Shown in pieces: positions 12,319-14,120 of a stretch of DNA of 64,000 nucleotides. The translations under genes were made by a program, and so were the position numbers. The stretch comes from Sphagnum magellanicum (taxonomy: Eukaryota > Streptophyta > Sphagnopsida > Sphagnales > Sphagnaceae): NCBI GenBank assembly GCA_021904315.1, contig CM038921.1:8586146-8650145 (forward strand), written 5' to 3'. Numbering within the stretch: the first letter of the stretch is position 1; every line of letters starts with the position of its first letter. The notes under the pieces were generated by a model. It had not been told where the DNA came from and ran no database searches. It saw nothing but the letters and a program-made list of their open reading frames with translations.

Positions 12319-14120
12319 TCACAAAATTGTCAACTCATCCACATGTAATATCACAGACATGGACCATACCTCTGCAGCAAGTTCCAAAATGCGGGCCAGT
12401 GGCAAATAAGGTTGATACATATCCTTGCAGCTCAATTCAGGAACTGTTGTTGATTCTGTTGTTATTGTTGCAACAATGTTTGCATGGGACATCACCATTG
12501 CTTGCAATCACCTCTTCAATTCTTACCCCATTCTCTTCAACATAGAATGAAAGAAAACAAACAACTACTGAAGTCCTGAACTATAAAAAATGAAAAACCA
12601 TTGTTCACACTATTTGAAGAGGTAATTGTCACCATTCCATCTTTATGACCCACAAAACCATGAAAGAGCCAAAATAACAACCTCCAATCATACCAGTATT
12701 CTACTTAGTGGTCTTTAGTGAACTTGACCATATAATAAATCAATTTAGGCCAATTTAACAGTCATAATGGGCAACCTTTGTTGGACAGATTGTGAGACAA
12801 CCCATATGCAAATTTGGGACATCCAAATTAGTAACTCAAAGCAAAAAATGTGAAACATGCCAAACCCAAACAAGGTCCTAGAGCTTATCACACAAAAAAA
12901 TATACAGTCTTCTTTCCCATGAGGAACATACACAATATACAAACACACCTATTACAATCATAACAAACACATACATCCCAGCATTTTCTACTTCACTTAC
13001 ATCATATTTGGAATGGTTGATGACGAGTTGGAGCAGGTTGCAAATCCAGATTGTAATGAATTGTTGTCCTGGATGGAGTTAAGATTTTGATGGGGTGTAC
13101 AAACTAGTCCTTGAAGAATGGATTGCCTGAACCTATAATATAGACTGCTTAGTTATAATGATATTGTCATGTATGATGCAGCTTGCCTTTGGCAAGTCTG
13201 TCAGTTGAGCCTTCTCAAAGCTACTAAGCTAACATCCACATATTTAAAAGCTTTACCTGCAGCTCAGTCTAGAATACAACCACACAATATCAAAACATTC
13301 TTCAACACTTGCAACACCCAAACCATGCCCACTTTCCTTCTCATATAGGCTCTTCATTTGAAATTGTATCCATGAAATTACTATGAATCGAAATTACTTC
13401 AAGGGCAACATAGTTGGGAATTCCACAGCTAGTTTTGAAAAAGTGTCCATTGTGCATTATATTGCTGAAGCCAAAGTACACAATTTTGATATTGCATTTT
13501 GAATCCAGGAGCAAGTTCTGAGGCTTCAAGTCACAATGCACAACCATGTTGTGGTGATAGTATTCCACCCCTAACACAATCTGTTCACACAACACCCACT
13601 TAATATCCATTCATCCTTGCTGAGATCTAGAATATTGATGGTGAGTTTTGTCAAAACACAACAACAAATATTGGATCTGAAGACAAACAATGGTCCCATG
13701 AGGATTCCAATGCTCCCTACTTGCATTAAACAAACCATACACAACATATGTTGAATGACAACAAAAGATGTGTTTTACAAGCACTGCCAAATTGAGATAG
13801 ACCTATAAAATCCAACTCCTCAATTCTATTCTACACTTCACAATATTTGCACTATATGACACACAATTTAATGGCTTGCATAACATTCTAGATGCAAAAC
13901 ATGTATGAAGAGTATGGAGCTATACTTGCTAAAAGAACTGGTGAGCCTCGTCGTCAACCAATTGTCCCTTCTCAACAATGTAATCAAACAGCTCCACAGA
14001 CTTCACATACTCCATCACCACAAAGGTGTTGGACAGTGTCTCTATAACCTCATATAGCCATATGATGTGTGGATGCATGAACAAGCAAAGAATCTTGATC
14101 TCCCACCTCGCTATGAATAC
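12319..14120 (-). pseudogene. Decayed SnRK1 (AMPK/SNF1-type) protein kinase
   Basis: Three blocks in kinase order match plant SnRK1 catalytic subunits. Block 1, about 14108-13926, reads EIKILCLFMHPHII then VVMEYVKS then FDYIVEKG. Block 2, 13580-13389, reads [20 protein letters not shown] then SCGIPNY. A weak third block near 12390-12320 reads VWSMSVIL. Intron positions fit the family. HRD has become HCD (13538-13530) and DFG has become YFG (13478-13470), removing the Mg-binding Asp; APE has become ALE. The FFQQ end of block 1 has a TAG for the first Gln (13931-13929), with a GT donor intact at 13925. No exon for the ATP-binding loop was found, nor the UBA/KA1 C terminus. It cannot encode an active kinase; expression as a fragment cannot be excluded. 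Confidence 0.85.

Follow-up and report, generated by a model that had tools for sequence, protein, structure and literature searches.

A dead SnRK1 kinase fragment in Sphagnum magellanicum whose residue changes appear to record loss of methylated cytosines at CG and CHG sites

When a fragment of a plant gene for the energy-sensing kinase SnRK1 has lost nearly all of its arginines, did it simply drift, or do its changes record how the copy was silenced? The fragment in question lies in a window of 64,000 nucleotides of Sphagnum magellanicum DNA (GenBank assembly GCA_021904315.1, contig CM038921.1, positions 8,586,146 to 8,650,145 of the forward strand), and all coordinates given here are counted from the first base of this window. 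The reading that we favor, with a probability of roughly 0.8, is that the fragment is a partial, unprocessed duplicate of an SnRK1 alpha-subunit gene that carried methylation in CHG as well as CG context, and that deamination of the methylated cytosines made most of its residue changes. Deamination of methylated cytosines is well known, and the relic seems to be a pseudogene of an ordinary kind, the mutations of which apparently record how it was silenced.

The relic occupies positions 13389..14108 on the minus strand, with both exon blocks where the initial annotation had placed them. Exon A (13926..14108, minus strand) holds 61 codons, running from RWEIK to QFF*Q, which correspond to residues 65-125 of the Arabidopsis protein KIN10, and exon B (13389..13580, minus strand) holds 64 codons, corresponding to residues 126-189 and ending in EVIS. 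In a tblastn search with a working version of the KIN10 sequence, exon A was matched with an E value of 1.9e-20 and exon B with one of 2.5e-26, both ungapped, and the Pfam Pkinase model matched the two exons at 2.5e-8 and 4.5e-20, respectively. Compared with proteins of solved structure, exon A scored highest with AMPK alpha-1 (E 2.6e-15, with the TAG read through) and ssp2, CIPK24 and BRSK2 outscoring yeast SNF1, and exon B scored highest with yeast SNF1 (E 6.6e-22), fission-yeast ssp2, and AMPK, with SIK and MARK lower. The two exons are separated by an intron of 345 bp (13581..13925, minus strand), and as this intron is retained together with its GT...AG ends, the copy is genomic and unprocessed. 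An AG (14112-14111) stands two bases upstream of codon 65 at the start of exon A and a GT immediately 3' of this exon; directly 3' of the end of exon B, a GT is absent.

Across the 125 codons of the two exons there is a single stop, an in-frame TAG in place of Gln 124 (13929..13931, minus strand; by single-step classification, C to T in CHG context), and there are no frameshifts, as had been claimed for this locus. The HRD arginine has become cysteine (TGT at 13533..13535, minus strand) by a CG-type transition, so that the motif reads HCD, and the DFG aspartate has become tyrosine (TAC at 13476..13478, minus strand) by a transversion, giving YFG. Together with the TAG, these two changes rule out a working SnRK1 kinase, and the relic is a dead fragment of the kinase domain of the SnRK1/AMPK/SNF1 family. 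In tblastn with the full working KIN10 protein, nothing upstream of residue 65 or beyond residue 189 was found in the window, all other matches having E values of at least 1.5, and the region 11001-16000 has no second copy within the window at an E value of 1e-3. A search between 12000 and 16500 for terminal inverted repeats, such as an element that captured the fragment would have, gave eight inverted pairs, short or of low complexity, and nothing convincing; one inverted pair of 18 nt, with an 89% match, flanks the relic at a distance (12663 and 15869). Rfam gave nothing at the gathering threshold, and Pfam gave no match up to a curated cut-off for ten other open reading frames, seven of which lie within 12.3-15.7 kb. 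Elsewhere in the window, Pfam recognized pieces of other genes, namely an NT-C2 piece (5936-7099, minus strand), a TRAF-type zinc finger (20154-20549, plus strand), and a piece of a glycosyl transferase family a/b domain (PF00591; 27326-27673, minus strand).

The ancestor used for comparison was this working version of KIN10, not a paralogue from the same genome. A search for an intact SnRK1 in other contigs gave no match among viral contigs and, among genome contigs, three bacterial records with 32-47% identity, which were unusable for alignment. Measured against KIN10, 92 of the 125 residues are identical and 33 differ. The version of KIN10 used has nine arginines within these codons, eight of which have changed, in order to W, C, W, Q, H, H, C, and H, and all eight of the changes named in the initial annotation are present; the ninth arginine (codon 65, AGG) has been retained. 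Residue loss is therefore far from even, affecting 8/9 arginines and 25/116 other residues (Fisher p = 8.6e-5). Four of the eight arginine changes fit C-to-T and four fit G-to-A on the coding strand, with no apparent strand bias. The proposal that they arose by such transitions in CGN codons suits all of them, but for the two tryptophan codons a transversion from AGG is a possible alternative.

Eight of the 33 differing positions (90, 93, 94, 100, 115, 116, 121, and 127) were set aside as variable within the family, a selection based in part on the AMPK and SNF1 alignment rows. Under a single-step reading, the 25 changes at the other positions consist of 12 CG-context transitions (all eight arginines, Asp to Asn twice, and Pro to Leu and Ala to Val once each), five CHG-context transitions (which made the stop and the changes Ser to Leu, Cys to Tyr, Ala to Val, and Pro to Leu), one to three in CHH context (Val to Ile, plus two Leu to Phe that are possibly transversions instead), one T-to-C change, and four transversions. 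The TAG, the alanine-to-valine change before ALE, and the proline-to-leucine change in ALE had been grouped with the arginine losses; they are indeed transitions, but their context is CHG and not CG. That a few changes are of a different kind also proved correct, the DFG Asp to Tyr change being the example given. Altogether, 17 of the 25 changes fit CG or CHG, and eight, Asp to Tyr included, do not.

Evidence from the arginines, which is CpG-based, is nevertheless insufficient to establish silencing, because CpG is depleted across most of the window, a working gene included. Of the 32 2-kb bins, 26 have a CpG observed/expected ratio no higher than 0.40, and an excess of TG+CA is present in every bin other than the CpG-rich one at 16-18 kb. 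Our control for a working gene, taken to be intact throughout, was a UPF1-like RNA helicase gene (54186-60700, plus strand), which was matched to solved UPF1 in 20 segments, with exons at about 54.2-60.7 kb; three of the 20 segments contain one stop codon each, located on or beside a trimmed edge. Within the 799 codons of the matched segments, 42 CG are left, an observed/expected ratio of 0.33. CGN codons encode 32 of the 44 arginines of these exons, and among the 149 serine, proline, threonine, and alanine codons, 3 are NCG; the CpG that remains is mostly at arginines held by selection. A copy freed of selection should consequently lose its arginines first, as is observed in the relic, where three CG remain in the exons and none in the intron. 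CpG loss alone is thus no proof of silencing, and it accounts for much of the arginine pattern without any special silencing.

Several patches of the window depart from this depletion. At 16501-17500, CpG observed/expected values of 1.66 and 1.39 stand in otherwise CpG-stripped sequence, and a perfect 53-bp tandem repeat of 2.4 copies (16824-16948) lies within this patch. Other CpG-rich bins, with values of 0.55-0.72, are found at 4001-6000, 28001-30000, 38001-40000, and 52001-54000. Some of these patches are near apparent gene starts, and by composition they resemble what unmethylated CpG islands would look like.

The alternative that survives best is that the relic underwent the ordinary CG-only decay of working gene bodies and was never specially silenced. 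The depletion of CpG across the window is in its favor, and so, to a degree, are simulations of the arginine pattern. With near-complete CpG loss (95% per CpG pair), the loss of at least eight arginines, all to C, W, Q, or H, appeared in 6.75% of runs in which CG only was lost and in 4.35% of those with loss at CpG and CHG. When CG was lost independently at each base with a probability of 0.49, the same pattern appeared in 0.13% of CG-only runs and in none with CG and CHG (3000 runs); we turned to 95% loss per pair because the per-base value spares about one quarter of the CpG pairs, and the fitted 15 changes on about 31 CG bases imply that nearly every pair has changed. Even under near-complete CpG loss, a loss of 8/9 arginines is on the high side.

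The evidence against CG-only decay comes from CHG context, which was the subject of the DISCRIMINATING test. We used a codon-level mutation model in which the ancestral codons were latent but had to specify the residues of KIN10, and the UPF1-like exons supplied the codon preferences. The transition probability per base was 0.49 at CG, 0.31 at CHG, and 0.016 at CHH sites (15.1 changes on 30.7 bases, 8.0 on 26.8, and 1.3 on 101.5, respectively, with 3.8 A/T transitions on 184.8), and the rate ratios were 30.6 for CG/CHH (95% interval 6.3-459) and 18.8 for CHG/CHH (95% interval 3.5-308). One part of the interpretation in the initial annotation, that the relic decayed mainly at methylatable CG and CHG cytosines rather than by random drift, is upheld, with rates about 30 and 18 times that of CHH and flat control contexts, and the enrichment of substitutions at these sites, which it had offered as a check, is present at the protein level against the working version of KIN10.

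Both ratios withstood changes in the model. They were 25.3 for CG/CHH and 13.4 for CHG/CHH with a uniform codon prior, 18.9 and 12.8 when the constraint was restricted to positions at which KIN10 has the AMPK residue (exon A) or the SNF1 residue (exon B), which freed 32 positions, and 26.8 (95% interval from 5.2) and 16.6 when the eight arginines were omitted. Omitting each of the five CHG codons singly left CHG/CHH at 16.4-18.5, and omitting three of them together left it at 12.2 (95% interval from 1.7). The control contexts gave no enrichment, with ratios of 1.3 for GC (interval including 1), 1.9 for GHC (95% interval 0.6-4.9), and 0.4 for CHT in place of CHG. In simulations run with shorter chains than the data, CHG/CHH rose to a maximum of 2.7 in 48 flat data sets and 5.6 in 48 CG-only data sets, so that none of the 48 CG-only simulations reached the real value of 18.8. 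A parsimony count gave five CHG changes versus one or three CHH changes (Fisher p 0.0016 or 0.011), the counts being small and the site numbers derived from the model. Outside CG and CHG, the relic is little changed, with transversions, A/T transitions, and CHH transitions at about 2% each, which may be the reason for the missing indels and suggests that the relic is young.

Base composition also bears on the question. Over the relic (13389-14108), CAG+CTG is found 12 times where 24 are expected, and none of 1000 dinucleotide-preserving shuffles was as low; this halving of CWG sites counts against CG-only decay. The CHG loss of 0.31 per base in the model predicts that 0.69 squared, or 0.48, of CWG would remain, and 0.50 was found. 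The wider region 8001-15000 has 109 versus 174 expected (0/200 shuffles as low), whereas no depletion is seen in the UPF1 region at 54-64 kb (418 versus 420) or at 16-28 kb (463 versus 456). In the AT-rich region at 30-52 kb, CAG+CTG amounts to 65 versus 327 expected, about 80% having gone. TAG+CTA is one product of CAG/CTG loss, and its ratio is 1.27 in the relic, 1.26 at 8-15 kb, and 1.47 at 30-52 kb, compared with 0.92 at 1-8 kb, 1.03 at 16-30 kb, and 0.99 at 54-64 kb. Since CHG loss is present in the relic and absent at 16-28 and 54-64 kb, it points to silenced, TE-like methylation; loss at CG only fits gene-body methylation, and loss at CG and CHG fits the TE-like methylation of silent DNA. 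By the same measure, 30001-52000 looks like long-silenced DNA. This AT-rich region also contains 25-bp tandem repeats at 46.7-48.3 kb.

At a coarser scale, the contrast between relic and genes is weak. The 2-kb bins of the relic, with CWG ratios of 0.75 and 0.73, resemble the near-gene bins at 6-8 kb (0.77) and 52-54 kb (0.75), a likeness that CG-only decay would explain, and the gene bins at 22-26 and 28-30 kb have ratios of 0.83-0.89. In the stretch around the relic from which CpG has mostly been lost (12001..15500), seven 500-bp bins with 7-16 sites each have CAG/CTG observed/expected ratios of 0.55-1.05. The value of 1.05 belongs to the bin at 12.0-12.5 kb, and the adjoining 9.0-12.0 kb is strongly depleted (0.14-0.44), so that the stretch sits between a region of strong loss and the CpG-rich start of the next gene. 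We consider CG-only decay improbable, though it deserves more weight than any other alternative.

Less probable still is an early divergence in which the copy functioned as an unusual kinase, such as one of the non-RD type with HC for HR, before it was broken, some of its residues then being inherited from a paralogue. Kinases of the HC non-RD type do occur in plants, and 125 codons with one stop and no frameshift might suggest a functional past. However, at most one stop is expected in 35-70% of simulated neutral runs, and we therefore rejected the open frame as a trace of past function; moreover, both the DFG aspartate and the HRD arginine have been lost, and the arginine changes are spread over many separate sites, all fitting CG context. 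Random neutral drift with no effect of context can be dismissed almost entirely, for although the eight arginines were singled out after they had been noticed and transversions are among the changes, none of 4000 no-context simulations gave the arginine pattern and the CG signal survives when those arginines are omitted. In view of the plant-like genes and the CHG context, fungal RIP was provisionally discounted.

Under the favored reading, that of a duplicate methylated at CG and CHG, two exons and an intron of an SnRK1 alpha-subunit gene would have been duplicated into an intergenic site, and the piece cannot function as a kinase. In the working parent gene, CG methylation of the gene body would already have stripped nearly all CpG save that in the CGN arginine codons held by selection, a stage postulated by analogy with the neighboring UPF1-like gene of this window. 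Once selection had ended, the CpGs of the arginine codons would have been the hottest sites remaining, and 8/9 arginines would have been lost, all by one route. The copy would have carried CHG as well as CG methylation, as silent transposon-like plant DNA does, with CHG loss starting simultaneously or later. Two sequences of events may be envisaged, in which either a functional copy was shut down by methylation or a piece that was already broken landed in silent DNA.

A broader proposal, which we hold with slightly less than even confidence, is that DNA sequence by itself records past chromatin state, that CAG/CTG loss acts as a clock of the time spent silenced, and that the relic is two-stage and young. 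If so, CpG loss with CAG/CTG intact would mark gene bodies in Sphagnum magellanicum, and loss of both would mark silenced DNA, the clock reading about half of CAG/CTG lost over the relic and about 80% at 30-52 kb. The first stage, in the gene body, would have removed CpG except at arginines, and the second, in the silenced state, would have removed the arginines and begun the loss at CHG. The relic would then be far younger than implied by the 26% of residues at which it differs from KIN10. Protein divergence would overstate the age of methylated pseudogenes; here, 17/25 changes at non-variable positions fit CG or CHG. The value of the locus is that one sequence seems to separate the CG-only loss of a gene body from the CG and CHG loss of a dead copy, and we suggest CAG/CTG depletion beside CpG depletion as a measure that flags silenced plant gene copies without bisulfite data.

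A narrow literature search, covering parts of the texts, returned no SnRK1 relic read in this way and no count of CHG loss for a plant pseudogene, and we do not claim priority. Over 125 codons of the kinase domain, the relic aligns with the plant SnRK1 alpha subunit (KIN10/SnRK1.1), the orthologue of AMPK alpha and SNF1, from which it differs in having only two exons, a stop codon, and broken HRD and DFG motifs. Arabidopsis SnRK1.3 is 'considered a non-expressed pseudogene' (PMC4090914). Both are non-working plant copies of SnRK1, the relic being a two-exon fragment, and no relationship between them is claimed.

A maize study distinguishes gbM, which is mCG only, from teM, which is mCG plus mCHG in coding sequence, and describes most teM genes as silent and as likely to be pseudogenes or products of faulty annotation (PMC10550312). 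Similarly, the relic bears a CG and CHG mutation record in a dead gene, which is known here from the mutations to be expected of such methylation; its trace at CG and CHG, and not at CHH, may serve as a mutational proxy for teM, albeit one outside the published definition. The UPF1-like gene corresponds instead to gene-body methylation, having lost CpG and retained CWG. For the fern Alsophila spinulosa, a methylome report gives mCG of 88.87%, mCHG of 66.83%, and mCHH of 0.03%, with gene-body methylation mostly in CG (PMC9122828). The near-zero CHH effect in the relic would fit a genome with almost no mCHH, the likeness to ferns being only suggestive.

Two further systems are comparable. Human CGN arginine codons are hypermutable in cancer genes (PMC11111792), and CGN arginine is the weak point in both cases, although one concerns human tumours and the other a plant pseudogene. 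Nuclear copies of organelle DNA decay by deamination of methylated cytosines (PMC5037628). The process is the same and it likewise acts on non-functional nuclear DNA of plants, with the difference that the relic is the duplicate of a nuclear gene.
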